From positions 1-25,122 of IMG/VR virus record IMGVR_UViG_3300025674_000357: DNA of 25,122 nt; one strand, written 5' to 3'. Shown here one piece after another: positions 7,115-23,013 of the stretch. This stretch comes from a virus. Numbering within the stretch: position 1 is the first letter of the stretch; each line of letters starts with the position of its first letter. The notes under the pieces are model-generated. The model searched no databases, was not told where the DNA came from, and was given only the letters and a program-made list of their open reading frames with translations. The translations under genes were made by a program, and so were the position numbers.

Positions 7115-7381
7115 ATGGCGAACTACATCGACGTAGATATAGAAGAAGCGGTAATTGCTTTGCAAAATTTTGAGATAGTCTATCTTAGTGGTCAGCCACG
7201 AGCAACCAGTCGTACAATTGCGTTTCACTCACGTTACGAATGTTTCCAGAATGGATTAGGAACATTTACGATTACCGACCAAGGGCGCGTCGTAGGTGAA
7301 TACAAACGACCAAAAAAATGCTTGCAGGTTGCGAATAGCAGACAATTTGCAAACGGGGGATTTTTTTTAATTGAGGAGTGA
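7115..7381 (+). CDS. Hypothetical small beta-rich protein
   Basis: This 88-residue protein is rich in short strands (ALQNFEIVYLSG, RTIAFHSRYECF, GTFTITDQGRVVGEY) and basic near the C-terminus (KRPKKC). It starts at ATG 7115, 16 bases after the previous stop, and its TGA overlaps the ATG of the small terminase gene (TGATG). No family is recognised. It could be a small DNA-associated or packaging accessory protein. Confidence 0.55.
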   Translation: MANYIDVDIEEAVIALQNFEIVYLSGQPRATSRTIAFHSRYECFQNGLGTFTITDQGRVVGEYKRPKKCLQVANSRQFANGGFFLIEE

Positions 7382-8041: not shown

Positions 8042-8062
8042 TAGGGCGTAAGCCCTATTTTT
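8042..8062 (+). terminator. Compact terminator between the 7719 gene and TerL
   Basis: A perfect 6-bp stem TAGGGC/GCCCTA with a 4-base GTAA loop is followed by TTTTTG. It ends only a few bases before the TerL start. The hairpin could be a terminator for the single-gene unit at 7719-8036 or, if read through, could affect TerL initiation. Confidence 0.7.
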
Positions 8063-8066
8063 GTTT

Positions 8067-9233
8067 ATGCGTCAGCCAAAGACATACTACGACCTAAAGA
8101 ACTGCAACACACGCGTAGCTGTGTTTCAGGGCGGGACGCGTAGTGGCAAGACGTTCTCGATAATTACGGTGCTGTGCGAATGGTGCTATCGCAACCAGAA
8201 CGCAGGGTACGTACTGACCATAGTGCGTAAAGCGTTTCCTTCGTTACGTGCATCGGTCATGCGTGACTTTTTGTTTATCCTAGACCGTGAAGGTTGGTAT
8301 GACGAGCGTAACCACAACAAGACCGAGAACACTTACAACCTGTTTGGCAATACGTGGGAGTTTCTCTCAATTGACCAGCCCGCTAAAATCAGAGGCGCAA
8401 AGCGGCAGTTCTGTTTTATCAACGAGGCAAATGAACTAGACTTGGAATCGTACCGACAGTTGACGCTAAGAACGTCGCACGACCTTGACGCACCGTCAGT
8501 TATCTTGGACTACAACCCGTCGGATGAGTACCACTGGATTTACGATGAGGTCATACCACGCGATGACGCGTCATTTTTTAAGTCAACCTATCTTGACAAC
8601 CCGTTTCTTAATCAGGAAACGATTAACGAGATTGAACGCTTACGAGATACTGACGAATACTACTGGACGGTCTACGGATTGGGTGAGCGCGGACAAAGCA
8701 GAGAGACTATCTTTCGCAGTGACGTTTACAGCGAACTACCAGAACGCGCTAAGTTTTTGGCGTGGGGTATTGACTGGGGTTTTGCCAATGACCCGACTGC
8801 CTTGGTCAAGGTGTACGAACATGACCACGCGCTGTACATTGAAGAGTTTATGTATAGTGGCGGACTTACCAATAGCGACATAGGTCACAAACTTCAGGAG
8901 TTGGGTATCACACGGCACGAGGAAATCATAGCTGACTCAGCCGAACCCAAGAGTATCGAGGAGATACACAGGATGAACTTTAACATCAAGCCAGCAAAGA
9001 AGGGTGCAGACTCAGTACGCATCGGAATCGATGTTATGCGCAGGTACAAGTTGTACGTCAAGGACACTAGCCTAAACGCGCAGAAAGAATTCCGCAACTA
9101 CAAATGGATGACAGACAAGAACGGACGTGTGCTAAATCAACCAAGGGACGAATGGAATCACTGCGTCGATGCTGTGCGCTATGTTTGCCTAAATAAGTTG
9201 CTACGTCGAACAGGAAAATACTTTGTATCGTGA
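8067..9233 (+). CDS. terL: Terminase large subunit
   Basis: This 388-residue packaging motor cuts concatemeric DNA and pumps it into the procapsid with ATP. The Walker A motif QGGTRSGKT lies at residues 21-29. Walker B is FCFINEA at 115-121 (Glu120 catalytic). The coupling-type segment LDYNPS is at 147-152. The RNase-H-fold nuclease acidic residues are Asp236 (GIDWG), Asp290 (IADSAEP) and Asp368 (CVDAVRY). ATG 8067 was preferred over TTG 8061, two codons earlier, which lies inside the hairpin's T-tract. The protein is at the short end for TerL but has all expected motifs. The gene overlaps the next start (GTGA). Confidence 0.95.
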   Translation: MRQPKTYYDLKNCNTRVAVFQGGTRSGKTFSIITVLCEWCYRNQNAGYVLTIVRKAFPSLRASVMRDFLFILDREGWYDERNHNKTENTYNLFGNTWEFLSIDQPAKIRGAKRQFCFINEANELDLESYRQLTLRTSHDLDAPSVILDYNPSDEYHWIYDEVIPRDDASFFKSTYLDNPFLNQETINEIERLRDTDEYYWTVYGLGERGQSRETIFRSDVYSELPERAKFLAWGIDWGFANDPTALVKVYEHDHALYIEEFMYSGGLTNSDIGHKLQELGITRHEEIIADSAEPKSIEEIHRMNFNIKPAKKGADSVRIGIDVMRRYKLYVKDTSLNAQKEFRNYKWMTDKNGRVLNQPRDEWNHCVDAVRYVCLNKLLRRTGKYFVS

Positions 9234-9847
9234 AGGTCAAAATCACCATTCCAGAAAGCTACGCGGACATTACCGTCAGTATGTACAAACGCATAATGAA
9301 ACATTGGCGGTCAGAGGTCGGCGGCACAGATGCCGTTAAACGCGTTTTAAAGGAGCTGTGCGGCACATCGGAGGATGTGATAGAGCGTATGTATGTAGAA
9401 GATTTTAATGCGCTTGTACGCGATTTAACGTGGTTGTTTGCCGAGCCTAAACTTTCCGACTTTCAATTGCAACAGCACTTCATGATGGACGGGGTGAAGT
9501 ATGGGTTTATTCCAAATATGCAAAACCTGACCGTGGGTGAGTTTGCAGACCTAGAAACGTACATGGAGGGCGGGATGTTTGAGAACCTACAAGAAGTCCT
9601 AGCCATATTGTATCGACCCGTCACCAGAGAAAAAAGCAAGCTGTACGAGATTGAGTCATACGAGCCTAGCCAGATAAAGACAGATGCGATGGGCGAATGT
9701 CCTATGGACGTAGCAATTGGTGCGGTGGTTTTTTTTTATCGTATCGAGACAGCATTAGCAAACGCTTTGCCGCTCTCTTTACCAGCGACGGCACGTCAGA
9801 CAAGATTACCCAAAAGTGGGGATGGTACGCAATCATATACCAATTAG
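9230..9847 (+). CDS. Tail assembly chaperone-like protein, zero-frame product
   Basis: This 205-residue protein begins at GTG 9230, coupled to TerL by GTGA. I recognise the central pattern (about residues 85-165: GVKYGFIPNMQNLTVGEFADLETY, AILYRPVT, YEIESYE, CPMDVAIGAVVFFY) from a conserved tail-region family of Bacteroidota phages that I suspect acts as tail assembly chaperone. The recognisable part stops at VVFFY, exactly where the DNA has nine T residues (9729-9737). The last 36 residues have low complexity (ALANALPLSLPATARQ) and look like translation of another gene's alternative frame. Conserved-looking sequence continues in the -1 frame. This is either the short form of a programmed frameshift pair or a gene broken by a homopolymer error. 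Confidence 0.7.
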   Translation: MKVKITIPESYADITVSMYKRIMKHWRSEVGGTDAVKRVLKELCGTSEDVIERMYVEDFNALVRDLTWLFAEPKLSDFQLQQHFMMDGVKYGFIPNMQNLTVGEFADLETYMEGGMFENLQEVLAILYRPVTREKSKLYEIESYEPSQIKTDAMGECPMDVAIGAVVFFYRIETALANALPLSLPATARQTRLPKSGDGTQSYTN

Positions 9848-9984
9848 CTGACGGAGACATACTGAAAATGGAACACGTCGCACGTATATTAGTAGAGGAG
9901 GCATTTACATTCATGGCGTATGAAAAAGACCTCAACTTGTCACAAAAAGTAAAAATAGATGCAGACAATAAACGACGTAAATGA
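9230..9984 (+). CDS. Tail assembly chaperone-like fusion made by -1 frameshift (long form)
   Basis: If ribosomes slip -1 on the T9 run, residue 169 is followed by an 82-residue extension encoded at 9736-9984, giving 251 residues. The extension reads DGTSDKITQKWGWYAIIYQLADGDILKMEHV, then LVEEAFTFMAYEKD, and is basic at the end. The KWGWY-IYQLA-GDILK stretch is the kind I recall from the C-terminal parts of such tail proteins. Long/short chaperone pairs (as lambda G and GT) bind the tape measure protein during tail assembly. The tape measure gene lies about 5.3 kb downstream in the same module. The frame-shift reading is inference; a sequencing indel in the T-run would give the same continuous gene. 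Confidence 0.6.
9729..9737 (+). other. T9 slippery run at the frame junction
   Basis: In the zero frame the codons are GTT TTT TTT TAT, so the heptamer T-TTT-TTT (X-XXY-YYZ form) is correctly placed for a -1 slip. The new frame then reads TTA TCG TAT. No strong pseudoknot was identified downstream by eye. The run could also promote transcriptional slippage. Confidence 0.6.
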
Positions 9985-10420
9985 CGTCTTCAAAAACATA
10001 GCAGATGCGCACCAGCAACTAAAATCGTTTTACACGCATTCCATCGACGAGGTAGACATCGATAAGATTACTATCGACGATTTTCCGCTGTTGTATGCGC
10101 AGGTGACTGACGCAAGCATTGAAGGTAGTTACACGTCATACACGTACGAGGTTTTTGTAGCGACTGTGGTGTTTGAAAACCAGCGCGATTTTGTCACGCA
10201 GATTTATACTGAAACAATGGGCATTATGCAGGACGTCATTGCAGAGTTTCATTTAGCTGCAAGTTCAGATACAAACTTTGCCCCTGCTTCGTGGTCATTG
10301 GAAATGCCTGTGACGTGCGAACCGTTTACGGCGCGATTGACTAACAGTCTTACGGGGTGGTCAGCCAACTTTACTATTAACCTGCCTAGCCCAAGCAATT
10401 TGTGCGATGCCCTCTATTAA
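9959..10420 (+). CDS. Putative tail completion/terminator protein
   Basis: This 153-residue alpha/beta protein has an N-terminal helix (NDVFKNIADAHQQLKSF), then DDFPLLYAQVTDA, strands with long polar loops (EVFVATVVFENQRD), the helix TQIYTETMGIMQDVIAEFH, and beta-rich C-terminal sequence. This order resembles the small neck/tail-terminator proteins that cap the tail tube and join it to the head (lambda gpU-like or similar). The gene lies between the chaperone-like gene and a gp10-like gene, where such proteins are encoded. It overlaps the chaperone extension by 26 bases. The family assignment is by analogy only. Confidence 0.5.
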   Translation: MQTINDVNDVFKNIADAHQQLKSFYTHSIDEVDIDKITIDDFPLLYAQVTDASIEGSYTSYTYEVFVATVVFENQRDFVTQIYTETMGIMQDVIAEFHLAASSDTNFAPASWSLEMPVTCEPFTARLTNSLTGWSANFTINLPSPSNLCDALY

Positions 10421-11006
10421 GTACCTGCTTGACTGGGGAGGGTCGTCCCATAAACTAGACTTGTATCGTACTGAACACGAGTTCAAAAAATACGGCAATG
10501 CGGTTATTAAAGAAATGCGCAAAATCCTACAAGAAGAAGGTAAGAACGCAAGCGGCAATTTGAGCAAAACCATGTCGCACCGATTTGAAGTAGGCAAGAA
10601 GCAGTTTGAATTGATTTTTGACTTAGCACCGTACTGGGATTACGTAGCGAGTGGGGTACAGGGTAAAGTCAGCAATAAGAAAGCACCGAACAGCCCTTAC
10701 AAATTTGGCACAGGTTCAGGGCCAAAAGGCAAGCTAGTGCCAGCGATTGATAAATGGACAGTAGTAAAACCTATCAAGGCGGTACGCGATAAGAAAGGCA
10801 GGTTCATTCCGCGTAAGCAATTAGTGCGAGCCATCAGTCGCAACATTTATATGCACGGTATTCAACCGACTCCGTTTGTGCGTGAACCGATGCATATATT
10901 AATGAAGAAGCACCAGAAACGAATATCCAATGCATTTGCTTCGGACGTCTGGCACTTCTACAAGAAAGAACTTCCCTTAGCATTCGAGATAGAAATTGAT
11001 TTGTAA
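10407..11006 (+). CDS. HK97 gp10-like neck/tail protein
   Basis: This 199-residue basic protein has an N-terminal helical segment, then the pattern VIKEMRKILQEEGKNASGNLSKTM-hydrophobic strand-LAPYWDYVASGVQGK, and later a Lys/Arg-rich loop and PTPFVREPMHILMKKHQKRI. The helix, then S/G-N-L-x-x-S, then hydrophobic strand, then Y-x-x-xV-x-x-G order is typical of HK97 gp10-type proteins that act in head-tail joining or tail completion. The end (PTPFVREPMxxxxxxHxxxI) also fits that family. It overlaps its neighbours by 14 bases and one base. Confidence 0.6.
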   Translation: MPSIKYLLDWGGSSHKLDLYRTEHEFKKYGNAVIKEMRKILQEEGKNASGNLSKTMSHRFEVGKKQFELIFDLAPYWDYVASGVQGKVSNKKAPNSPYKFGTGSGPKGKLVPAIDKWTVVKPIKAVRDKKGRFIPRKQLVRAISRNIYMHGIQPTPFVREPMHILMKKHQKRISNAFASDVWHFYKKELPLAFEIEIDL

Positions 11007-12280
11007 TGGCATTAGTTGTACAACAAGAACCCACGCCTACGCTATTAGGCACAGCCGACGAAATTGTCTACGTCGTTTTCGAAAACAGCGGCAACCCAAC
11101 AGAAGCAAAGTTTCGGTATATCTGCAAAGTCACTGTAGACGGTACGGTCGTAGCTAAACTGAAACAATTGCCAAACAGCACAGATTCTGGCGTGTTTGAT
11201 TTGTCTATGATTATGTCGGCATACACGGCGCAAGACCATAACGTACACGACACAGTATTGACCGCTGAGAGTACGACGGCTATGGAAAAGTACACGCTAG
11301 ATTTTTACTACGAGTACGCTACAACAGCAGATGACGACCCTGTAGAGTATCCTGACGCTGCGGAGACAAAGACGGCGTACGCAGTCAACGGCACATTTAC
11401 GCCAGTGTACAACGACTACGACAGCACCAACTACGATAACTACATTCTAAACGACGACCGTGCAAAATTTTTGTCTGTTTATGAGCCACAAAATATCCGC
11501 GCACAAGAAATGGACAAAGGCGTATTAGCGTTTATTAATGGTTCAACTTCAGCACCGTGGAATAGCCCAGCCGTTTATTTTCACATTGCGTATTACAACG
11601 GCACTACTGCATTGAATAGCGGTTACCTTACTAACACCGTCACGCAAATAGCATCGACTACGCCTAGCCAATTTCTTATGTACGCGGGATTGTTTCCTGC
11701 AAACCTAGAAGCGCAGACATCAGTAACTACGTTGCAACCAAGTGACGCAGGCAACGCAAACTGGACGCACTACACTATTCAAGTTTCCGACCAAACTACT
11801 TTAAGCGGCAACGAAACGAGCGCACAGTACAAGATTACAAAGGAGGTAGAATGCAAGTACGAAGCCATTCGATTAGCGTGGTGGAACGAATTAGGCGGCT
11901 GGGATTATTACACCTTTCACGGCAAGCACACGCACAGCGAAAAAATTGAACGCAAAACGTATCGGTCAGTAGGCGGCAACAAGTACAACGCGGACGGCGA
12001 TACCACGGATTACGTAAAGAAACCGTACGAAGGCGGGTTAAAGATTAGCGGCATTCGAACTACTAACGAATGGACGCTAAACACAGAAGGCGAAAACGAA
12101 GCATTTAACAATGTCCTAGACAGCCTGATGAACAGCCCTGAAGTATTGTGGTACAAAGACGGAGCATGGCGTGGATGCGTAGTGACCGACACGGGAATAG
12201 ACTTTAAGTCAAGCATAAACGACAAAGGCATTGTTTATACAGTAACGATTGAAGAATCGCGATACAAACCTACGATATGA
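11006..12280 (+). CDS. Phage tail protein (distal-type, uncharacterised)
   Basis: This 424-residue beta-rich protein starts on the A of the previous TAA. It has the motif FRYICKVTVDG-VAKLKQLPN, repeated polar strands and the segment EVECKYEAIRLAWWNELGGWDYYTFHGKHTHS, which I recall as 'WLN-LGGxDYxxF' from tail-region genes of Bacteroidota phages. No enzyme motif is seen. It precedes the large tail protein and tape measure, so it is probably a component of the tail tip or baseplate-equivalent, or a tail-tube cap. The assignment to tail is from context and general pattern. Confidence 0.6.
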   Translation: MALVVQQEPTPTLLGTADEIVYVVFENSGNPTEAKFRYICKVTVDGTVVAKLKQLPNSTDSGVFDLSMIMSAYTAQDHNVHDTVLTAESTTAMEKYTLDFYYEYATTADDDPVEYPDAAETKTAYAVNGTFTPVYNDYDSTNYDNYILNDDRAKFLSVYEPQNIRAQEMDKGVLAFINGSTSAPWNSPAVYFHIAYYNGTTALNSGYLTNTVTQIASTTPSQFLMYAGLFPANLEAQTSVTTLQPSDAGNANWTHYTIQVSDQTTLSGNETSAQYKITKEVECKYEAIRLAWWNELGGWDYYTFHGKHTHSEKIERKTYRSVGGNKYNADGDTTDYVKKPYEGGLKISGIRTTNEWTLNTEGENEAFNNVLDSLMNSPEVLWYKDGAWRGCVVTDTGIDFKSSINDKGIVYTVTIEESRYKPTI

Positions 12281-15117
12281 CAGAGTTACTAGTAAAAGAA
12301 CAAGGCAGCAACATCACGACAAATTTAGATTTGTCTGACCCGCGTATTGAGTTAAACTTTGAAATACAGAACAACACGAAACTGAGTGAGCGTAGCAGCC
12401 CACACAGTTTGAGCTTTAGCTTGCCGCGCACCAAGACGAACGAGAAGTTCTTTGCGCACTACTACAACGTCAACGCTACTAACGAAACGTGGTCAGCTTA
12501 TAGTGAAACGGTTTGCGAGGTGTATGACCACGGCATAATTGTGCTGGTAGGTACGCTGCAATTAAATCAGGTGACTGATGAGGTGTACAGCGTTAATGTG
12601 CTAGGAACAGTAGCTAACGCGTTTCGTGCTATTAGGGGCAAGTCTTTCAACGATTTGTTCGTTGAGCAAATTGGTACAGACCTTGACCACAGCCTTACTA
12701 GCACGAACGTAATTAACTCGTGGAGTCTTGGTAATGACATTACTAATGGGTCTGTTGGTAACGGCACGGTTGTCTACCCACTTGTTGACAACGGATGGTA
12801 TCCGTTTGGTTGGTATCTGGCTGGTGACTTTCCGTTTAGCGGACTAAACAACAACTGGGTAGTACGGCCTGAACACTTGAAGCCCTCGGTTAGAGTAATT
12901 TGGTTATTTGAGCAAATATTTAAATACGCTGGGTACACGATAAATTATCGGGAAGGACTGACATCGAAGGCTTTTACTACCGTTTATATGTTCACAGGCA
13001 CGGAACAAAAAACCGTTGCTGCGCGTCCTATGTACGGAGCAAAAAATGGTTTGGTAGACAACATAGCAATTCCAGCAAATACATTTGATGTTTCGTATCC
13101 ATTCCAGCCTACGGTAGAAACAGGCGTGTTTTTTGACCCAGACAATTTATTTCAAGGAGGCGTTTTTACTGCACCGTTTGACGGCACGTTTACCATTGTC
13201 GCTAACATTATTTTGACAACCGTTGCAACTACAGACTACTATTTTTCTGTAAACGCTTTTAGTTCAACTGAAACATTCAGCGACCAAGTATTAGTTCCAG
13301 CATCTGCAACCGCTGGCTATCTGTACACAGCGCAATTTCTATTTACTTGTACGCAATCGCAACAAGTAAATTTTGCTATAAGTGCAGAATGCGGCTCTGA
13401 CGTCGTAGTCAAACCAAGTCTATCTGGTTTGGGCGTTACGTCGCTTAGTGTACCGTTGTACGATACAGACAACCCTCAAGGCGCGGTAGTCGATATGGCT
13501 GCAAATATGCCTGATATGACGTTGGACAAATGGTTGAAGGCTATTGTTGAGAAATGGAACATCGTACTTGAATACGACAAAGACCAACCCACAATTATTT
13601 ACGCAGATACTGCGGAAAACTATTTTAAGAACGGCGACACGTACGACTGGTCGCAAAAAGTAGATTATTCGAAAAGCGTAGTGGTAAAGCCTACGACTGA
13701 GTTGCAATCGAAGCGACTCATTTTTGAAGACAAAGAAGGCAAAGACCACAGAAACGATTGGTGGCAACGCAACTGGGGTTGGGTTAAAGGACGATATATC
13801 TACGAAAACGACAACGATTTTGCGGTTGACGAAGAAACAATTGGTGGGACGTTTGTGCCGTTGCGTACGCAGCACATTCGAAAAGACAGCACGACGGAAG
13901 AAACGCTAATACCAAACGTATTGGTTTCGCGGCAATGGGTAAATTCTGAAGAAGGCGCAGAACAAATTACTAATAAACCTATTTTGGCGTATTACAACGG
14001 TTTAAAAAACATTGGTAATGGCTACGACTTCTTAGTGGACAGCACCAGCGTGACGCAGTATCCGTTGTTCAGCATTTACAGTCGCGTTCCAGTAGTTGCA
14101 GATACAGTGTGTTTAAATTGGGGTTACGATTACCCTGATGACGACACACACCCGCTTATTGACGGTGTGCCGTTTTACTTTATGTTTCGTAAGTATTGGG
14201 CAAAGTATATCGACGAGATTTACAGCGATGAAGCCCGCATGATGGAATGCAAGGTATTTTTGTCTGCGCAGGATGTACGCGACCTTAATTTTAACGACAA
14301 GGTGTACATCGATGAGTCGTATTGGCGTGTTTTGAATATTTCTAATTATGAGGTATCAGGCGAAAATGCGTGTAACGTCAGTTTGCTGAAAATTTTAGAC
14401 AAAGGCGAGTGGGATTGCACATTGAGACCTGATGAGTATTTGCCAAACGGCACAGTAACTTTTGTAAACGCACAGACTGGCGCATCTGCAACACCACAAA
14501 GAGGTTGTTGTGAGCAATTTGGATACAAATGGAATACAGGAACTAGCACCTGTCATTACAAAACTGTAAGCGGGACGATTGGCGGTAATCCATCCGAACC
14601 TGATGATGCGGCTGCGTTTCTAAAAAGTGGTGGAAACTCAGGCAATGCGTTGCCCATTCCAAACAGCAAGTCTGTAAGTTTTGATGGTATTAATGTGTCG
14701 GGTTCGCAGACTGCGTTTGCGATGGAGGCTGTAACTACAGGAACAACGTACGTTAATCTGCAAATGGTTGATGGTGGCACGGATATTCCGCTTGCCCCCA
14801 ACATGGTGTACGGCGTAGATATAGACGCTGTTGTGTATCAATACGGCGGCAGCGGTGGCACAATTGGTGACGTAGATTACCTAAAACAAACGACAGCAAT
14901 AAAATTAGTTGACGGAAGGGTTTCACAAGTGGGCAATTTTCATACGGTTTCGCATCAAAAAGACCACACCAACGTACACGGTTTACAATGGGCAACATCT
15001 GGCGGCGGTCCGACACCAGCAATTTTAAGACTACAAGTAAGCGGTCAAAATAACCACGATTTGCAATGGTTTGTAACAGTCAAGATAACGGCTTTAAGCA
15101 CCCTTAAATTCCTTTGA
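12277..15117 (+). CDS. Large tail protein (tail tip/baseplate-like)
   Basis: This 946-residue protein is the largest in the window and starts by a 4-base overlap (ATGA). The N-terminal part (about residues 1-150: a VKEQGSNITTNLDLSDPRIELNF start, then LSFSLPRTKTNEKFFAHYYNVN) matches a recurrent tail-tip type of Bacteroidota phages. The middle is beta-rich. Near the C-terminus, Cys744-Cys745 followed by FGYKWNTGTSTC (Cys759) forms a CC...GYxW...C motif, and the last 150 residues are Gly/Ser/Thr-rich strands suited to a receptor-contacting or adhesin-like end. It probably forms the tail tip hub or central fibre. The nested ORFs in other frames are overlaps without support. Confidence 0.7.
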   Translation: MTELLVKEQGSNITTNLDLSDPRIELNFEIQNNTKLSERSSPHSLSFSLPRTKTNEKFFAHYYNVNATNETWSAYSETVCEVYDHGIIVLVGTLQLNQVTDEVYSVNVLGTVANAFRAIRGKSFNDLFVEQIGTDLDHSLTSTNVINSWSLGNDITNGSVGNGTVVYPLVDNGWYPFGWYLAGDFPFSGLNNNWVVRPEHLKPSVRVIWLFEQIFKYAGYTINYREGLTSKAFTTVYMFTGTEQKTVAARPMYGAKNGLVDNIAIPANTFDVSYPFQPTVETGVFFDPDNLFQGGVFTAPFDGTFTIVANIILTTVATTDYYFSVNAFSSTETFSDQVLVPASATAGYLYTAQFLFTCTQSQQVNFAISAECGSDVVVKPSLSGLGVTSLSVPLYDTDNPQGAVVDMAANMPDMTLDKWLKAIVEKWNIVLEYDKDQPTIIYADTAENYFKNGDTYDWSQKVDYSKSVVVKPTTELQSKRLIFEDKEGKDHRNDWWQRNWGWVKGRYIYENDNDFAVDEETIGGTFVPLRTQHIRKDSTTEETLIPNVLVSRQWVNSEEGAEQITNKPILAYYNGLKNIGNGYDFLVDSTSVTQYPLFSIYSRVPVVADTVCLNWGYDYPDDDTHPLIDGVPFYFMFRKYWAKYIDEIYSDEARMMECKVFLSAQDVRDLNFNDKVYIDESYWRVLNISNYEVSGENACNVSLLKILDKGEWDCTLRPDEYLPNGTVTFVNAQTGASATPQRGCCEQFGYKWNTGTSTCHYKTVSGTIGGNPSEPDDAAAFLKSGGNSGNALPIPNSKSVSFDGINVSGSQTAFAMEAVTTGTTYVNLQMVDGGTDIPLAPNMVYGVDIDAVVYQYGGSGGTIGDVDYLKQTTAIKLVDGRVSQVGNFHTVSHQKDHTNVHGLQWATSGGGPTPAILRLQVSGQNNHDLQWFVTVKITALSTLKFL

Positions 15118-15281
15118 TGGACACATTCTTTAACAACGTAGGGCGCGGCGTTTGCGCAGCAATTAAGCTATCTAACGAACGTATATATAAAGGTAGCCCA
15201 CTGTGGTTGCAGTGGTACGGCAGGTACGACATAAACAGTAGTACGTGGTCAAAAATTAAATTAGTTCTGCGCAATGGCTAA
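15117..15281 (+). CDS. Small hypothetical protein between tail tip and tape measure
   Basis: A 54-residue ORF starts with ATG overlapping the TGA of the large tail gene (TGATG) and ends eight bases inside the tape measure gene (ATGGCTAA). Its product is basic and aromatic (NVGRGVCAAIKLSNERIYKGSPLWLQWYGRYDIN). Both junctions use overlaps typical for this genome, so translation is likely. A small tail or assembly protein is a possibility, without sequence evidence for function. Confidence 0.5.
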   Translation: MDTFFNNVGRGVCAAIKLSNERIYKGSPLWLQWYGRYDINSSTWSKIKLVLRNG

Positions 15282-16887
15282 AGAAAAAGAAATACCTATT
15301 AACACTAAAGTCAAAGTTGACGCTAAAGAGGCGGGTGACAGCATTGAAGAATTTGGTGAAAAAGTAGAAAAGCTAAAGCGCAGGTCTAGCGGCGCAGCTA
15401 AATCTGCAAGCAAAGACTGGGGTGGGTTTGCTAATTTGTTTTCTGGTCTGTTGCCACGTAACGTGCAGATGATGATTCGAAAGTTTGAGTCTACCGTGCG
15501 TCAAGTTGGTCGATTGAGCAAGGGTCTAAAATTCTTGAAAGGCGCGTTTGCTGGTCTCGGAATTGGTTTGCTCATCATTGCCCTTGAAACGCTTATCAGC
15601 CGATGGGACGATATTACGCGTTTGATTAGCGGAGTCACAAAGGAACAGGAGCGTTACAACGATGTAGTCAAGGCGGGCAGCAAGGCGGTAGAAGATTACA
15701 ACACGAAAAACGCAGAATACATTAGGACAGTCAACGATACTTCTGAAGCCACAAATGTTCGGGAGCAGGCTTTGGCAGGATTGGCTACGCAACTCCGTGA
15801 GGTGCGAGATTTAGACTTGCAAAACGCAAAGGATTTAGAGCGGTTCAACGAAGCGATTCATCGTAATACGCAGTTGGTGGATATTCAAAGCCAGCAACAA
15901 AAATTGATGAATCAAATCAATGAAATACGGAACGAAAAAGATGAAGTGTCAGTCGGTGTGCTGGATTATTTAGGCAACGCGCAACATCGTCAAAATGTAC
16001 TCGCAGAAAAGAAAGCAGAAAAGGATGCGGAAATAAATAAGTTGGTAGAGCGGTACAATGAACTAACACGCCAAAAGTTAGAAATAGAATCGCAAACCAC
16101 TGCCGAATTAGACCGACAAGCAGCGAAACAAGACCATCTGCGATTGCTTGAAGCCGCACGATTGAAGTACGGCAAGGACTGGGAGTTCCAGATGGAACAA
16201 ATGGAGGAGGCTGATGAAGAAGCATTTGAGCAGGATATGTTCCGTTTAGGTGAACAACTAAGTGCGGAGTTAAGTGCAGAGCGCGAAAAAAACGATGCTT
16301 TAAAACAGGAACGACTTGAGTTTTCAGAATGGCTCGACAATTTAAGAGCAGAAGAAGCTGCAAGAGAAGAATATTGGGCAAAGGAAACACTGCGAATAAA
16401 ACTGGAAGGTATTGATGCGGAAGCCCAAGCGCGTAACGCTGGTTTCCGTGCAGCAGAAAACATCAGCACCCAACTAGAGCGACTAAGTGAGGACGGCACA
16501 AACACACAAAAAGCCTTTGCGGTTACGAGTGTATTGTTGAGCCAAGCACAGGCGGTCTCATCTGCTATTGCAGCAGCAGTAAAAGCGGCAGCAAATACTG
16601 GGCCAGCAGCACCAGTCGTAACGCCATTATTAATTGCTCAAATGGTAGGCATTGCTTTAAGTTCGTTTGCACAGGTACGTTCTATTTTGCAACAAGCAGG
16701 CGCAAGTACGGGAGGTGCAGTTCAAGGCGGTGGTGGTAGAGGTGGTGCGACACAGGCGTTAGTCCCACAAGGCACAGGCGGACGACAGCAACAATTACCA
16801 CAGGTTAACCAGTCGTATGTAGTCCAGAGTCAGTTGCAAGGCATGATGCACCTACAGAGCGGTTTAGAAAAAAGGTTACACCTGTAG
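15274..16887 (+). CDS. Tape measure protein
   Basis: This 537-residue protein has the expected layout. The N-terminus is charged (residues 1-55), followed by a hydrophobic segment (AGLGIGLLIIALETLISRW, near residue 90-108). Long coiled-coil helices rich in Gln, Glu, Lys and Ala span about 115-400 (repeated runs such as AEKKAEKDAEINKLVERYN). The alanine-rich C-terminal segment (ALSSFAQVRSIL region, AVSSAIAAAVKAAANTGPAA) and a Gly/Gln-rich tail follow. By the usual rule of about 0.15 nm per residue, the tail would be near 80 nm. A non-contractile flexible tail is most likely because no sheath is seen. The gene ends the tail module, just before the promoter at 16918. Confidence 0.85.
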   Translation: MAKEKEIPINTKVKVDAKEAGDSIEEFGEKVEKLKRRSSGAAKSASKDWGGFANLFSGLLPRNVQMMIRKFESTVRQVGRLSKGLKFLKGAFAGLGIGLLIIALETLISRWDDITRLISGVTKEQERYNDVVKAGSKAVEDYNTKNAEYIRTVNDTSEATNVREQALAGLATQLREVRDLDLQNAKDLERFNEAIHRNTQLVDIQSQQQKLMNQINEIRNEKDEVSVGVLDYLGNAQHRQNVLAEKKAEKDAEINKLVERYNELTRQKLEIESQTTAELDRQAAKQDHLRLLEAARLKYGKDWEFQMEQMEEADEEAFEQDMFRLGEQLSAELSAEREKNDALKQERLEFSEWLDNLRAEEAAREEYWAKETLRIKLEGIDAEAQARNAGFRAAENISTQLERLSEDGTNTQKAFAVTSVLLSQAQAVSSAIAAAVKAAANTGPAAPVVTPLLIAQMVGIALSSFAQVRSILQQAGASTGGAVQGGGGRGGATQALVPQGTGGRQQQLPQVNQSYVVQSQLQGMMHLQSGLEKRLHL

Positions 16888-16917
16888 GCTAGGATATATT
16901 TTATAATAGGTACACTG

Positions 16918-16947
16918 TTGTCATTCTGTACAATTTGTGTATATTTG
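16918..16947 (+). promoter_or_regulatory. Promoter for the small-gene array and head module
   Basis: TTG at 16918-16920, 19 bases, then TATATTTG at 16940-16947 give an ideal Bacteroidota -33/-7 promoter. Inverted arms TTTGT (16934-16938) and ACAAA (16949-16953) flank the -7 box with the same 10-base spacing as the early promoter; 19 of the 20 core bases TTTGTGTATATTTGYACAAA match between the two sites, with one C/T difference. Transcription would begin near 16952-16956, which is the first base region of the repeated 17-base leader. Confidence 0.82.
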
Positions 16948-16964
16948 TACAAAACAACAGAGAT

Positions 16965-17210
16965 ATGGTTATCAGCATTAAAGGATTAACGTATAACGAG
17001 GTCACGGATTTCTTTGAAAGCTACGATGCAGGCGAAGGTGACATGGACATTTTCATTAACGACCTTGGATACGTAGATGCTGCAAGAGGTGATACGCGAC
17101 CTTTTGTCGAAATTGAAGTTAACGACCCGAGCGAGGAGGACTATTTAATCGACGTTGCAGAAAGCCTTGAGTACGAAGAACCTGATGCAGAAATTGAATT
17201 TATCGGATAA
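16965..17210 (+). CDS. Small, very acidic protein A, first gene of the leader array
   Basis: This 81-residue protein has about 24 Asp/Glu against three Lys/Arg, an estimated net charge near -21. The predicted order is strand (VISIKGL), helix (TYNEVTDFFESY), strand, then a segment rich in acidic residues ending EIEFIG. Upstream in-frame codons exist (TTG 16935), but ATG 16965 lies in the exact 17-base leader and follows the predicted transcription start, which makes it the start. No family is recognised. Extreme acidity in a small, highly expressed-looking phage protein is compatible with a nucleic-acid mimic or an ion-binding structural component. Neither is shown. Confidence 0.75.
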   Translation: MVISIKGLTYNEVTDFFESYDAGEGDMDIFINDLGYVDAARGDTRPFVEIEVNDPSEEDYLIDVAESLEYEEPDAEIEFIG

Positions 17211-17221
17211 ACAACAGAGAT

Positions 17222-17461
17222 ATGGATTACGTAAGACGATTTGAACAAGCCTTTGATGTGGAGAAAATTGCTGAGTTGTATGATAGAGGCTTTTTCTATA
17301 GGCTAACAAGTATGGCAAATTTTGCGCAAGAATTAGGCATTGATATTCGAGAAGTGACAAATGCCATTTACGACATTGAAGCCGTGTATAATATTTTGCT
17401 AGAAGTTGATTCGTATAAAGACGTTGTAATCAACCCATACGGATTTTCATACACCGACTAA
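17222..17461 (+). CDS. Small acidic protein B of the leader array
   Basis: This 79-residue protein is mostly helical in the first two thirds (MDYVRRFEQAFDVEKIAELYD, MANFAQELGIDIREV, YDIEAVYNILL) and ends with a beta-like VVINPYGFSYTD. Estimated net charge is near -8, less acidic than its neighbours. The 17-base leader overlaps the stop of gene A. The helical layout differs from genes D, E and F, so it is not obviously their paralogue. No function is recognised. Confidence 0.72.
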   Translation: MDYVRRFEQAFDVEKIAELYDRGFFYRLTSMANFAQELGIDIREVTNAIYDIEAVYNILLEVDSYKDVVINPYGFSYTD

Positions 17462-17472
17462 ACAACAGAGAT

Positions 17473-17691
17473 ATGGTAGCTAAAGACGTTGTTGGTTTAT
17501 TAAAAGAAATGTGGTACGACACGGTTGTGTTGGGCAATGAAGTAACATTAATTGATTACTATGCGTCAGACTACAATATGTTAGACATTGACGTAATCAC
17601 TGATGACCTAGATTATTATCATAGTTTGAAGGAGGGAATTGATTACGACTTGTCTTTTGACGGTGATGACCTGCTAATCATTTTTAACTAA
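17473..17691 (+). CDS. Small, very acidic protein C of the leader array
   Basis: This 72-residue protein has about 14 Asp and three Glu against three Lys. A short N-terminal helix (KDVVGLLKEMWYD) is followed by a strand pair (VVLGNEVTLIDYY), an acidic helix-like segment (DVITDDLDYYHSLKEG) and a C-terminal hairpin (YDLSFDGDDLLIIFN). The final GDD-type turn and LIIFN strand recur in general form in the product of the gene at 18172 (VDSRDIFIDFTN). It carries the repeated leader. Confidence 0.72.
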   Translation: MVAKDVVGLLKEMWYDTVVLGNEVTLIDYYASDYNMLDIDVITDDLDYYHSLKEGIDYDLSFDGDDLLIIFN

Positions 17692-17702
17692 ACAACAGAG
17701 AT

Positions 17703-17936
17703 ATGGATTACACAAAACAAGAACGCGCTGATTTACAACGTGAATTAGATTATTACGGAGTAGAGATGACTCTTATACGAGCGAACGGTGACTATTTTGT
17801 GGCTGACATTGAGGATATGCGAGGCGCATCAATCGACGAGGACGGTTTTACAGAAGTGCTAGAAGAAGTTGGCTTGCGTTTAATTGATTGGAAACAGCAC
17901 GACCGCGATTACGCAACAATTACAGCAGGCATTTAA
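17703..17936 (+). CDS. Small acidic protein D of the leader array
   Basis: This 77-residue protein has helix (KQERADLQRELDYYG), strand (VEMTLIRANGDYFVADIE), then an acidic loop (SIDEDG) and helix (FTEVLEEVG), ending in a strand-like LRLIDW segment. Estimated net charge is near -11. The helix-YYG-strand-NGD-strand order is shared with the products of genes E and F (LQTYG...EEGDAYY and MQLYG...SRGRI). This may indicate a diverged tandem family. It carries the repeated leader. Confidence 0.72.
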   Translation: MDYTKQERADLQRELDYYGVEMTLIRANGDYFVADIEDMRGASIDEDGFTEVLEEVGLRLIDWKQHDRDYATITAGI

Positions 17937-17947
17937 ACAACAGAGAT

Positions 17948-18169
17948 ATGGGGTACATATATAAAGACAGTTTAGAAGACGTAGTGGACGCTTTGCAGAC
18001 ATACGGATACGACGTATTTTCTGCGATTGAAGAAGGCGATGCGTACTACGTTATTGTCAATGGTCGAGACGTGCATTACTTGCTCGATGATTTGTTCCCC
18101 GACTTTGAATCCATTCCTACTGGGTACGTAGACGGCGACGGTGTAGAATACAAAATCACAGAGTACTAA
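17948..18169 (+). CDS. Small, very acidic protein E of the leader array
   Basis: This 73-residue protein has about 17 Asp/Glu against three Lys/Arg. It shows helix (DSLEDVVDALQTYGYDV), strand, turn EEGD, strand (AYYVIVNGRDV), then DDLFPDFESIPTGY and a C-terminal strand (GVEYKITEY). ATG 17948 is defined by the exact 17-base leader; a longer in-frame reading from 17888 would overlap gene D and lose the leader logic. It resembles D and F in its first half. Confidence 0.72.
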   Translation: MGYIYKDSLEDVVDALQTYGYDVFSAIEEGDAYYVIVNGRDVHYLLDDLFPDFESIPTGYVDGDGVEYKITEY

Positions 18170-18171
18170 AG

Positions 18172-18456
18172 ATGAGGTTCAACGATAAACAACTACGGAT
18201 GATTGAAGAAATCATCTTAGACACAATGCAATTGTACGGAATTAGTGGAAATTTAGAAATGGACAGCCGCGGGCGTATACAGTCATTTCGTGTTTTTGAC
18301 TACACGTACAAAGAAAGCGTAATCGGTCATAATGAAATTAATGAGTTTGCCGCAGATTTAGAAGAGAGCGTTCAAGATTACTTGTCGCTTGCTACTTACT
18401 ACGATGTCCACGTCATGGTTGACAGCCGTGACATTTTCATTGACTTTACGAATTAA
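18172..18456 (+). CDS. Acidic protein F, the only array gene without the leader
   Basis: This 94-residue protein has two N-terminal helices (KQLRMIEEIILDTMQLYG), strands around GNLEMDSRGRIQSFRVFDY, a central acidic helix (NEINEFAADLEESVQDY) and a C-terminal hairpin (DVHVMVDSRDIFIDFTN). Estimated net charge is near -10. It starts only two bases after the TAA of E (TAAAGATG) and lacks the 17-base repeat, so it is probably translated by coupling to E. Length and layout suggest it belongs to the same loose structural family. Confidence 0.7.
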   Translation: MRFNDKQLRMIEEIILDTMQLYGISGNLEMDSRGRIQSFRVFDYTYKESVIGHNEINEFAADLEESVQDYLSLATYYDVHVMVDSRDIFIDFTN

Positions 18457-18467
18457 ACAACAGAGAT

Positions 18468-18629
18468 ATGGATTCACGAGAAGTACGACACCTAATTAGT
18501 GAGGCGGTTCAGGCGATGGATGCCTATTTGGAAATTTACGCCCCCAATATGGACAACGCAGACTTTAGAAATTGCGAAGATTTTATACTTGCGGCTGGGG
18601 AAGCACGTCGAGCATTGAACCGTTACTAA
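18468..18629 (+). CDS. Small helical protein G of the leader array
   Basis: This 53-residue ORF begins at the ATG of leader copy six and ends at the TAA overlapping leader copy seven. The product is helical (DSREVRHLISEAVQAMDAYLEIYA, then FRNCEDFILAAGEARRALNRY) and close to neutral overall, unlike most array members. Exact leaders on both ends strongly support it as a real gene. No family is recognised. Confidence 0.7.
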   Translation: MDSREVRHLISEAVQAMDAYLEIYAPNMDNADFRNCEDFILAAGEARRALNRY

Positions 18630-18640
18630 ACAACAGAGAT

Positions 18641-19609
18641 ATGGCAGAACGCAAACTGATTGAATTACTTATTGAAGACGAGGCTGATGTAGCGGTAGAA
18701 GCTATCAGCCTTGTGAAGTTTCCTGCCATCGAGAGTAACTTCATTTTCTTCTCTAAGCAAGGCAAGAAGAAAGAGATGGTTTCGCTGGCTAGCATCGAGG
18801 ATGAAGACCAGCGTATGCTTATTGGTGCAGCGCTAATTCCTGACAAACATATCCCGCGCTACGACGAGTTTAGCGACGAAGAATACGACGTTTATTTTTC
18901 TAAGTCTACGGTCAAGTTGGCGGCTGAGATGTTTTTGAAGCAGAACCGCACAAACGACCACACGTTTGAGCATCAGGAAAACGTAGACAATGTGCACGTA
19001 GTCGAGTCGTGGCTTGTGACTAATCCAGAGATGGACAAGTCAAAGCATTACGGTTTGTCTGTTCCTGAAGGTACGTGGATGGTTCGCGTTCACGTAGCTA
19101 ACGACGATATGTGGAAATTTGTCAAAGAACAAGAAGTGCAGGGTTTTAGCATTGAGGGTTACTTTGTAGACAAACTAGAAAACATGAGTAAGCGCACGAA
19201 TCCAATGATGGACACACTTATTGAAATTAAAAACCTGCTTTTAGGCAAGCGTAAGTTGTACGCGGAAGCCAAGTTAGAAGACGGTCAGATGATTGTTACC
19301 GAGGCAGAAGAATTTGCTGCTGGCGTAGAGGTAAAGACGATTGACGAGGAAGGCAACCCAACGGACATTAAGGACGGCAAGTACACTACCGAAGGCGGTG
19401 TTGAATTAGAAGTGTTTAGCGGCGTTTTGACGGAGTATGACGGCGAGGTAAAAGAGGTAGAAGAACAAGCAGAAGAAGCTGAGAAAACAGAGATGGCTCG
19501 GCAAGTAGCATTTAAAAAGGAGGTGGTTAAACATCGCTTGGCTTTGCGCGAAATGGTCAAAAAAGAGTTTGGTAGTATTGACAATTTTAAGCGACTCGGA
19601 CATGAATAA
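18641..19609 (+). CDS. XkdF-like prohead protease (Peptidase_S78_2-type)
   Basis: This 322-residue protein shows the pattern of XkdF-type putative serine proteases that mature phage proheads. The core at about residues 60-175 includes IGAALIPDKHI, the Asp107-His108-Thr-Phe-Glu-His111 segment (NDHTFEHQ), VESWLVTNPEMDKSKHYGLSVPEGTWMVRV, and the nucleophile-type GFSIEGYF (Ser170). The C-terminal 140 residues are acidic with Lys-rich helices at the end (FKKEVVKHRLALREMVKK), a layout compatible with a scaffold-like domain. ATG 18641 is the start because the exact 17-base leader directly precedes it. An upstream in-frame start at 18572 would overlap gene G fully. Confidence 0.82.
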   Translation: MAERKLIELLIEDEADVAVEAISLVKFPAIESNFIFFSKQGKKKEMVSLASIEDEDQRMLIGAALIPDKHIPRYDEFSDEEYDVYFSKSTVKLAAEMFLKQNRTNDHTFEHQENVDNVHVVESWLVTNPEMDKSKHYGLSVPEGTWMVRVHVANDDMWKFVKEQEVQGFSIEGYFVDKLENMSKRTNPMMDTLIEIKNLLLGKRKLYAEAKLEDGQMIVTEAEEFAAGVEVKTIDEEGNPTDIKDGKYTTEGGVELEVFSGVLTEYDGEVKEVEEQAEEAEKTEMARQVAFKKEVVKHRLALREMVKKEFGSIDNFKRLGHE

Positions 19610-19880
19610 GTACGCAGAAATTGAATACTGGTACGAGCAGTGGGGAGGTGGCGGCAATGGACTTTCTGAAGCTATCAGCAACATTCGTTTAGACTTTCTC
19701 AATCAAACTGGTCACCTCAACAAGTTATTTAAGATTGCTGAAAAAGAAGCCTACGATGGTGACATTGACGGTTTAAGGGATACGCTTTCACAGGCGCATG
19801 ACACAGCAGCGTTTAGCGAGGACAAAGAATGGATTGACGCTTTGCTAGACTTTATATTTAATATTGAACAGTACGCATAA
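19602..19880 (+). CDS. Small acidic helical protein in the head module
   Basis: This 92-residue protein starts at ATG 19602, overlapping the protease stop by eight bases. An in-frame TTG at 19569 would extend the overlap without need. It is helical (AEIEYWYEQW, then SEAISNIRLDFLNQTGHLNKLFKIAEKEAYD and DKEWIDALLDFIFNIEQYA) and acidic. Helical repeats like these could mediate protein contacts. Unlike the array genes it has no 17-base leader. No family is recognised. Confidence 0.62.
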   Translation: MNKYAEIEYWYEQWGGGGNGLSEAISNIRLDFLNQTGHLNKLFKIAEKEAYDGDIDGLRDTLSQAHDTAAFSEDKEWIDALLDFIFNIEQYA

Positions 19881-20119
19881 TGGAACTAGCACTAATTGTT
19901 TATTTCAACCGACCACTTAGTCGTTATACTTCGTATAGCAAAGAAATTTTAGAATTTGTAGAACAGCATATTGACCCGCGAGTACCTGTAGAAGTAGCTA
20001 CGGTAGCAGACGCTGGTGGAACTGAGGTTGAGATTTATTTTGCGAATGCCAATATGCAGGTTATAGATGAAGTAGAATCAGCACTGTCTCGTGCAGGGTA
20101 TCTAGTAGATTACGCATAA
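19880..20119 (+). CDS. Small acidic alpha/beta protein
   Basis: This 79-residue protein begins on the last A of the previous stop (TAATG). The order is strand (ELALIVYF), helix (YSKEILEFVEQHI), strand (VPVEVATVADAGGTEVEIYFAN), helix (MQVIDEVESALSRAGY), strand, a ferredoxin-like alternation. It is acidic. No motif or family is recognised. Confidence 0.6.
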   Translation: MELALIVYFNRPLSRYTSYSKEILEFVEQHIDPRVPVEVATVADAGGTEVEIYFANANMQVIDEVESALSRAGYLVDYA

Positions 20120-20128
20120 CATTGAAAG

Positions 20129-20410
20129 ATGACATACAAAGAAGCAGTAGAAGAAGTGGCTTACGAGTTTGAAGTAGGCATGGGCTGTAAGCTTGGCGAT
20201 GTCTCTAATCGAGGCAATCAATATAAAATTGAAATCAAAGATGCGAACGGTTTTCCGCCAGCAGATTTTGAAGACATGGCGTATGACGGATTAGAATATT
20301 TGCTTGGTGAAGAAAAAACCAACAGCACATTTGTGAGTGTTGTATGGGATGTTTTGTCAGGCGAAGTACAGTCTGTAAACATTGATTTTCAATCATCCTT
20401 GCGACGCTAA
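20129..20410 (+). CDS. Small acidic alpha/beta protein
   Basis: This 93-residue protein has an N-terminal acidic helix (TYKEAVEEVAYEFEVG), a strand pair with a turn (NQYKIEIKDANG), a second helix (ADFEDMAYDGLEYLLGE) and C-terminal strands (FVSVVWDVLSGEVQSVNIDF). The helix-strand-turn-strand order resembles the leader-array genes D, E and F, although no leader is present. The gene starts nine bases after its neighbour's stop and overlaps the next gene by one base. Confidence 0.6.
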   Translation: MTYKEAVEEVAYEFEVGMGCKLGDVSNRGNQYKIEIKDANGFPPADFEDMAYDGLEYLLGEEKTNSTFVSVVWDVLSGEVQSVNIDFQSSLRR

Positions 20411-20664
20411 TGTTTGGACGACTGTACGACATCTGGATTGGCGACGAAGACGTCGAACTGCGTAACATGATTGAAGAGTTTCGTATTGACTACGGACTTG
20501 ACGAGAAATTTATGTACACGCTAGAACTCATTGAATCTTCAATAGCTGAAATGGACTATGAAGGCGCATTGACGCTTTTTCAATTTTACCAACCCAGCAA
20601 TATGTCTCGGTTGGATTACAACGTATTTGAACAACTATTATTAGACGCACAGTATGGCATTTAA
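20410..20664 (+). CDS. Small acidic helical protein
   Basis: This 84-residue protein is helical (EDVELRNMIEEFRIDYGLDEKFMYTLELIESSIAEM), with a GALTLFQFYQPSN stretch and a final helix (YNVFEQLLLDAQ). It overlaps the previous gene by one base and the following structural gene by 11 bases, so it is part of the head operon. It might be a minor head-associated or chaperone-like protein. There is no sequence-based family evidence. Confidence 0.58.
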   Translation: MFGRLYDIWIGDEDVELRNMIEEFRIDYGLDEKFMYTLELIESSIAEMDYEGALTLFQFYQPSNMSRLDYNVFEQLLLDAQYGI

Positions 20665-21490
20665 ATATTACCCAGCATTGCAGGCAACCGATGGCGACCA
20701 AACTTTGCCTATTCCAATGGCTTTGCACAATCCTAACGCGGCAGACATTACTGTAGAATTTACTCCTGAAGGTGACGGTTTAATTTACCAGCCTTTTGCA
20801 TCGAGCGCAGATGTTTTGGATGCAATTATTGAGTTGCCTACACTTCGGGCCGCGCAAGCAGCTACAGCGTATGACGCAACGACCATTCAAGGAAACGGAA
20901 GCGCAGCAGTCATAACCGTAACTACGACTGACGTAGGTAGCGACTTAGGTGCATTTTTAGGAGGTGGTTTATCGGGTGTAATTTTTGCAGGTTCAGGCAT
21001 TCCTTTGGGTGACGGAGTACAAACGTACACGCCTACAACAGACGGTTCAGGCTCAGGTTTTGAAGTAACATTTGCGGTGAGCGGAACAGCACCTGCACAA
21101 ACAGTTTCTGATTTGGTTGTTGTAAATGCAGGAACAGGATATGCGGTAGGCGATGTGTTGACATTTACTGCTGCAGACGAAGGCGAGTTTACTCGTACTC
21201 TTACAGCAGATGACATTAGCGTAGTTTTTCAACCTTCTGTAGCTACGGCTACGACTGCTGGCGATAATTACCGTGCAGGTGACATCATTCAGATTACAAT
21301 GTCCGAAGACATTACGGTTGGCGAGGTTACAACGACTTACACTTATAACGTAAGAATTCGCGTAAAGACTTCTGACCTTGCAAGCAGTAAAGTCGATTAC
21401 GTAATTGGCGCAGGCACAACAACACCTATTCGCGCATCAAAATTTAAGGTTCTTGGTACAGATGACCGAGCAGTAACAGCAATTGGATAA
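20654..21490 (+). CDS. Beta-rich structural protein, possible head decoration or fibre
   Basis: This 278-residue Thr/Ala/Gly/Val-rich protein contains the repeat-like motif NAGTGYAVGDVLTF (about residues 158-171) and a similar TTAGDNYRAGDIIQI (near 207-221), seen in beta-helical or fibre-like phage structural proteins. The first 50 residues are different (LPIPMALHNPNAADITVEF). Low charge and many strands suit a capsid decoration or head-fibre protein. It lies between the protease and scaffold-like genes. A cement or head fibre role is inference from position and composition. Confidence 0.58.
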   Translation: MAFKYYPALQATDGDQTLPIPMALHNPNAADITVEFTPEGDGLIYQPFASSADVLDAIIELPTLRAAQAATAYDATTIQGNGSAAVITVTTTDVGSDLGAFLGGGLSGVIFAGSGIPLGDGVQTYTPTTDGSGSGFEVTFAVSGTAPAQTVSDLVVVNAGTGYAVGDVLTFTAADEGEFTRTLTADDISVVFQPSVATATTAGDNYRAGDIIQITMSEDITVGEVTTTYTYNVRIRVKTSDLASSKVDYVIGAGTTTPIRASKFKVLGTDDRAVTAIG

Positions 21491-21492
21491 AT

Positions 21493-21999
21493 ATGAAACG
21501 AAAGTTTGAAGAAGAAGCGGTGGAAACTCCCGCAGAAGAAGTCCAAGAGGAATCGACCCCAGATTCACACGAACAGTTTATTAATATTTTAGTCGAAATG
21601 GGGCTTTCGGCTGAACAAGCAGAAGCAGTACACGAAATGGCTATGAAACTTGTAGAGAACGGTTCTTCTCAAGAAACAACAGAAGAAACCAAAGTAGAAG
21701 CATCTCGTCAGCGTCGCGCTGAATTCGCACGTCGTAAGCGTGGGTACGGACGACGAGGACGTAAGATGTCAGAGGAACGACGACCAGAAGGTCGCCGAGA
21801 AATGTCACGCGAAGAACGTCGTATGCGACGCCTTGCACGTGAGAACCGAATGTTGCGTCAGCAACTTTCAGAGATGGGACAGCAACCCGCATCCCAGCCG
21901 TTGCGTAACCGACCAGAAGCAAAGGCAGCACAGCCAGCTATCGAAGCGGGAGGCACGGCAAAGAGTCGGGTGTTTAATTACTTTAAAGACGTTATTTAA
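21493..21999 (+). CDS. Scaffolding-like protein upstream of the major capsid gene
   Basis: This 168-residue protein sits directly before the major capsid gene, the usual place for a scaffold. Residues 1-70 are acidic with a helix (EQFINILVEMGLSAEQAEAVHEM). Residues about 71-125 are extremely Arg-rich (runs such as RRKRGYGRRGRK and RREERRMRRLARENR). The C-terminal part (about 115-168) has coiled-coil-like helix and ends SRVFNYFKDVI. The acidic/basic split with a short C-terminal hydrophobic tail fits an internal scaffold that binds capsid protein. The very basic middle might also contact DNA, so a DNA-condensing or core protein is the alternative. Confidence 0.62.
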   Translation: MKRKFEEEAVETPAEEVQEESTPDSHEQFINILVEMGLSAEQAEAVHEMAMKLVENGSSQETTEETKVEASRQRRAEFARRKRGYGRRGRKMSEERRPEGRREMSREERRMRRLARENRMLRQQLSEMGQQPASQPLRNRPEAKAAQPAIEAGGTAKSRVFNYFKDVI

Positions 22000-22001
22000 T
22001 T

Positions 22002-23012: not shown

Positions 23013-23013
23013 T

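Follow-up and report, generated by a model that had tools for sequence, protein, structure and literature searches.

A gene probably read in two frames at a run of nine T's

The window, the whole stretch of viral DNA that we analyzed, corresponds to a viral record 25,122 bases long. In it, the gene for the terminase large subunit (8061 to 9233, + strand; Pfam Terminase_3, E = 2.4e-21) ends in a stop codon that overlaps the start of the gene studied here. The zero frame of this gene opens with a GTG at 9230 and closes with a stop at 9847. The resulting ORF (9230 to 9847, + strand; phrog_32199, 1.4e-11) encodes a putative short form of 205 aa, consisting of an N domain and a tail of 36 residues after FF. 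The candidate slip site is a run of nine T's at 9729 to 9737 (+ strand), where the zero-frame codons are GCG GTG GTT TTT TTT TAT CGT, and an in-phase T_TTT_TTT heptamer occupies 9730 to 9736 (+ strand) within it. The -1 frame stays open until 9984, and its extension from 9736 to 9984 (+ strand) encodes a conserved C domain of 82 aa (KWGWYAIIYQLADGD...) followed by a stop. A long form produced by a -1 shift would have 169 + 82 = 251 aa, and the stretch from 9737 to 9847 (+ strand), 3' of the slip site, would be decoded in both the zero and the -1 frame. The next gene (9959 to 10420, + strand; 153 aa) overlaps the end of the -1 ORF and was found in 76 of 82 clusters of relatives, defined below.

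The initial annotation had placed a T9 run at V-F-F, called its heptamer correctly phased, and followed conserved sequence (KWGWY...) onward in the -1 frame to 9984; the DNA bears out all three observations. No other A/T run in the window reaches nine. Next in length among its T runs is a T8 at 7361 to 7368 (+ strand), which lies near the end of the gene at 7115 to 7381 in the context GGA TTT TTT TTA ATT GAG GAG TGA.

AlphaFold2 modeled the short form with a pLDDT of 88 and the C domain with a moderate pLDDT of 78. The zero-frame continuation had been described as low-complexity sequence, a description that the analysis does not support, since it begins as a conserved predicted helix: in the model it forms the end of one helix (residues 159 to 183), and in aligned relatives its first residues are kept as FFxxIE or FFxxLG. 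Across the 82 clusters the zero-frame stop falls 16 to 63 residues past FF (median 31), and the C domain is conserved in relatives well past that stop.

Conservation of the frame switch

We collected relatives from IMG/VR with several queries. The N part matched 8 loci (65 to 99% identity), the C part matched 28 loci (39 to 100% identity), the C part of Nonlabens phage P12024L matched 12 loci, and alignment queries added more. These included an N-domain query cut before FF, which carries no information on the run or on the frame of the C part and from which we took the best 80 of 298 matches, and two further alignment searches, each with the best 80 of 273. We then ran profile HMMs for N and C over all 346 loci. 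Every one of the 341 N+C pairs had C in the -1 frame, a count that is redundant because the loci overlap; the three N matches that lacked C were each cut by the end of a contig. The nonredundant set comprised 175 distinct sequences, which formed 82 clusters at 90% identity, 49 at 70%, 20 at 50%, and 12 at 40%.

In all 175 distinct N+C pairs from the fetched loci, the C part lies in the -1 frame at the same protein position, behind a run of nine T's (134 sequences), ten (38), or eleven (3). Runs of seven or eight T's were absent from this site in the 175 sequences, and the frame-blind N-domain scan gave no exception to the -1 switch among the best 80 of its 298 matches. The DNA stretch GTGGTTTTTTTTTATCGTATCGAGA is identical in relatives of at least 65% identity. 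The comparison with related phages therefore lends strong support to the -1 switch at the T9 proposed in the initial annotation, and it shows that the relatives have kept the switch, where it happens, which way it goes, and a run of at least nine T's. In comparative sequence terms, the arrangement is that expected of a tail assembly chaperone (TAC) pair, in which one start gives two products through a putative shift of frame close to where the short form ends.

Two scans of bacterial and archaeal genome contigs returned no relative and therefore no prophage or host link. In the phage collection, the split family is represented by two isolates only, Nonlabens phages P12024L and P12024S. Genes 40 and 41 of P12024L lie at 12001 to 12695 of its locus (L010), and the similarity to the C domain starts 81 nt before the start of gene 41, behind a T9.

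Distant homologues with a single ORF

Five distant isolates carry N and the part that follows it in one ORF. These are Flavobacterium phage FPSV-F7 (293 aa; T run of 5 at the matching place), laban6-1 (301 aa; 6), Cellulophaga phage Ingeline_1 (301 aa; 6), Polaribacter phage Leef_1 (259 aa; 0), and Microcystis phage Mea-Yong924-1 (274 aa; 6). Homology of the N part was found by hhalign for Leef_1 (E = 1.2e-7), a protein of Flavobacterium phage 6H (5.8e-6), and the Microcystis phage (1.3e-5). The comparison of the C part took in the Microcystis phage, Ingeline_1, and Leef_1; homology was detected for the Microcystis phage (E = 4e-4) and was weak for Ingeline_1 and Leef_1 (P = 0.05 to 0.07). In addition, seven BFVD proteins of 234 to 267 aa were matched by both the N and the C models, of which A0A516L611 alone had E < 0.001 in both searches. 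The single-ORF homologues and these BFVD proteins, like the conservation of the C domain, speak for a genuine long form. A single in-frame gene in relatives, which the initial annotation had named as evidence against a frame shift, thus occurs in distant relatives only, and all relatives found with a KWGWY-type second domain keep the split.

We also considered gp10 of phage 6H as an independent frameshift and rejected it: its -1 continuation stops at once, and its sister FPSV-F7 has one ORF of 293 aa. The 6H gene (10352 to 10927 of locus L349, - strand) ends early, and the remainder lies unannotated downstream in 6H. BLASTP of the window's 153-aa gene against 6H gp09 gave no match.

The T run appears to be kept as a unit

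The run occurs in two arrangements, xTT TTT TTT T[ACG]x in 102 sequences and NNT TTT TTT TTG/TTT in 73, so that the two phases swap one T for another in 175 of 175. In the first arrangement, T8 and T10 forms are absent among the 175. We mapped these states on a tree of the 82 clusters, built with the junction residues excluded. The arrangement changes four times on the tree, with two of the changes forced by starred branches, and four changes in the phase trade-off are too few for a sign test. In simulations with the two flanking positions evolving independently, a perfect trade-off appeared in 0 of 5000, whereas runs that never fell below nine T's appeared in 393 of 5000 (7.9%), or in 4 of 408 when both sites had to vary. 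The trade-off is suggestive evidence that the T run is kept as a unit.

On the same tree, no change occurred at the third positions of the left codon and both Phe codons or at the first base of the next codon; for comparison, the third positions of 12 other conserved residues change 14 to 37 times. At second bases we counted 8 changes in the left codon and 9 in the right codon, with the run staying at nine or more throughout. Phe codons elsewhere in the N part are TTC in 104 of 464 cases. Some T's of the run are forced by the dual-frame coding itself. Apart from this site, two T9 runs occur in the 447 kb of the 83 loci standing for clusters.

The silent-site test is a stronger argument than the trade-off. 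It used the 97 of 175 sequences (39 of 82 clusters) in which the codon following the Phe pair has A or G at its second base. Here the last T of the second Phe codon could become C without altering the residues encoded in either frame, leaving U_UUU_UUC, a good slippery site for ribosomes; this C was seen in 0 of 97. Within the same 39 clusters, seven other conserved columns ending in T or C show 6 to 11 changes each, with the caveat that, of five other, partly conserved Phe columns, one (20 rows) never changes and another changes just twice.

Gene context and a putative role in tail assembly

The terminase gene lies directly upstream of the split gene in 67 of the 74 clusters with at least 600 nt of upstream sequence, and the window's 199-aa gene was matched in 68 of 82 clusters. 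The split gene is not directly upstream of the tape-measure gene: a tape-measure-like gene (15274 to 16887, + strand; phrog_24676, tail length tape measure protein, 1.3e-7) lies 5.3 kb and four genes downstream. The homologue in Ingeline_1 is placed between the adaptor gene and the tape-measure gene, with two genes separating it from the latter.

TAC_7 was matched by 4 of 82 clusters with a best E of 0.0081, which is not significant; phrog_166, labeled "tail protein," was matched by 12 of 82 (best 1e-5); and a match in BFVD that is named as a chaperone had E = 0.038. Comparison by hhalign with P2 E and Mu gp41 (P = 0.11 to 0.12) detected no sequence relation. Fold searches of the PDB with the short form gave no usable match, which does not imply a new fold; the C model was searched in BFVD only.

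Overall, the best reading of the function, plausible from the sequence context, is that of a putative tail-assembly chaperone pair. The label "tail chaperone-like" given earlier keeps its plausibility from the tail gene block, the short/long pair, the Ingeline_1 homologue, and the weak profile matches, but it lacks a significant TAC match. By analogy with G/GT, short copies together with fewer long ones would assist in assembling the tail tube and the tape-measure protein.

The gene order from 8061 to 23613 of the window is unusual, with the terminase gene followed at once by the split gene, then the tape-measure-like gene (from 15274) and, not until 22002, a capsid-like gene (weak profile matches). 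In addition, the 16-mer AAACAACAGAGATATG occurs in seven exact copies between 16952 and 18643 (+ strand), starting at 16952, 17209, 17460, 17690, 17935, 18455, and 18628, where zero copies are expected by chance. The last three bases of each copy are the ATG start codon of a gene, the genes forming a series in which most are small, and no Shine-Dalgarno-like box was found upstream of these starts. The 16-mer occurs one to eight times in 15 of 355 fetched loci, reaching eight in two of them (L035 and L038). It is perhaps a shared leader for translation without Shine-Dalgarno.

Polymerase slippage, ribosomal frameshifting, and other explanations

We propose that a single start gives two proteins. 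Straight reading would produce the 205-aa short form, and a move of the frame by -1 at the T9 would produce the 251-aa long form, adding a second conserved domain that is predicted to be helical. RNA polymerase would slip on the T run, part of the transcripts would gain one extra U, and these transcripts would be read directly into the second domain.

Polymerase slippage requires an unbroken run. According to PMC6260861, RNA polymerase of E. coli slips on runs from T7 up, at 5 to 10% on T7/T8 and rising with length, and PMC1088944 reports that selection against slippage is visible at nine A/T in many bacterial genomes. One sign of slippage, conservation of an A/T homopolymer no shorter than eight or nine, is present here as T9 to T11 in 175 of 175 sequences. 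A direction of shift that varies among orthologues, another sign, is absent, with -1 in all 175. Under the GeneTack rule of Antonov et al. 2013 (PMC3711429), as stated there, constant direction is a ribosomal sign and mixed direction a transcriptional one; dual coding of the overlap could also cause a constant direction.

The main competitor is a classical -1 programmed ribosomal frameshift, in which the two tRNA-Phe in the P and A sites would shift at once on U_UUU_UUU, as in lambda G/GT, whether or not polymerase slippage also contributes. We regard this explanation as possible but rather unlikely. Besides the constant direction, which the GeneTack rule counts toward the ribosome (PMC3711429), it can draw on the in-phase T_TTT_TTT, a heptamer of the X_XXY_YYZ type, present in all members, given that a T9 contains the heptamer in any phase. 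The tail-gene precedents described in PMC5009743 are ribosomal, and U_UUU_UUU is listed among the shifty heptamers in E. coli (PMC4066793). However, seven T's would suffice for a ribosomal site, yet the run always has at least nine, and the whole family holds no alternative heptamer. The doubly silent U_UUU_UUC is absent from all 97 informative sequences, even though, in the E. coli -1 shifting data of PMC4066793, U_UU.C ranks over U_UU.U among tetramers and IS elements use U_UU.U_UU.C, so that a ribosomal site should tolerate the silent C. Finally, a stimulatory structure downstream is common in such frameshifting but not required, and in calculations on pseudoknot-free folds we detected no signal of downstream RNA structure relative to control windows (mean z of -0.06 and -0.41): the mean z was -0.24 over 60 nt and -0.43 over 40 nt.

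Because U_UUU_UUC was never seen and no downstream structure was detected, the data point to RNA polymerase slippage, which we infer from the sequences to be the most likely main mechanism. The initial annotation had mentioned it as an aside; with the silent-site test and what is reported in PMC4066793 and PMC1088944, it is now the better supported candidate mechanism. There is about an even chance that the fuller claim is right, namely, that a clade of tailed phages (with flavobacterial hosts where known) sets the short/long ratio of a tail-assembly pair not on the ribosome but through slippage of RNA polymerase, for which at least nine T's in a row would be obligatory. If so, the ratio would depend on which polymerase transcribes the phage genes. 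Our literature search turned up no phage tail gene for which polymerase slippage had been reported; subscription papers were thinly covered, so this absence is unproven.

Three further explanations were each tested and rejected. The second domain might be a gene in its own right, translated from its own start codon in the way that gene 41 of P12024L was deposited, and some members do have a start codon in the -1 frame (an ATG at 9697 in the window). We consider this very improbable: a -1 frame ATG before KWGWY is present in only 16 of 82 clusters, and any ATG, GTG, or TTG in 47 of 82, P12024L is already similar from 81 nt ahead of the start annotated there, and conservation of the T run would be needless. 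Long homopolymers mutate readily, and the run might gain or lose bases at replication and so toggle the long form on and off. Such phase variation is hardly credible here, as an in-frame ON state was found in 0 of 175 distinct sequences, and the T10 and T11 forms arise by substitution, leaving the frame difference unchanged. Homopolymers are also error-prone on some platforms, but a sequencing or assembly error has practically no chance of explaining the split, because all 175 distinct sequences, from many metagenomes and the isolate P12024L, keep the -1 frame behind T9 to T11.

Comparison with known systems

Among the closest counterparts known are genes 40 and 41 of Nonlabens phages P12024L and P12024S (phrog_32199 and phrog_38404), which have homologous N and C parts and a T9 and lie directly after the terminase gene. 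They differ in sequence, with about 27% identity, and they were deposited as two hypothetical genes without a frameshift. The frame switch at the T run explains why annotation treats such genes as a pair of hypothetical proteins with no relation to each other. The single-ORF homologues from Duneviridae, Helgolandviridae, and a Microcystis phage (phrog_25418) have an N domain that is related by hhalign (E = 1e-5 to 1e-7), and in the Microcystis phage the C part is also similar (E = 4e-4). In contrast to the split family, these homologues have one continuous ORF with a T run of at most six at the site.

The split gene resembles lambda G/GT and P2 E/E+E', which use -1 ribosomal frameshifting, in its short/long pair, its -1 direction, its shared N part with an added C domain, and its position in a tail gene block. 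In sequence, we could detect no relation between it and P2 E or Mu gp41. It also differs from lambda G/GT and P2 in that the T run of its family is unbroken and at least nine long and in that the window's tape-measure gene is not adjacent.

Programmed transcriptional slippage on A/T runs has been described for Thermus dnaX (A9), Shigella mxiE, Citrobacter tssM (A11), and IS elements, and these systems, as presented in PMC1088944 and PMC4256274, share with the split gene a homopolymer of at least nine, no structure signal, and two length variants. Compared with them, the split gene belongs to a phage structural block, and the direction of its putative shift never varies in the family. Ribosomal recoding has one of its standard examples in the frameshifting of tail chaperones; the run of at least nine T's that is always unbroken, and the doubly silent C that is never seen, suggest that RNA polymerase can solve the same ratio problem.
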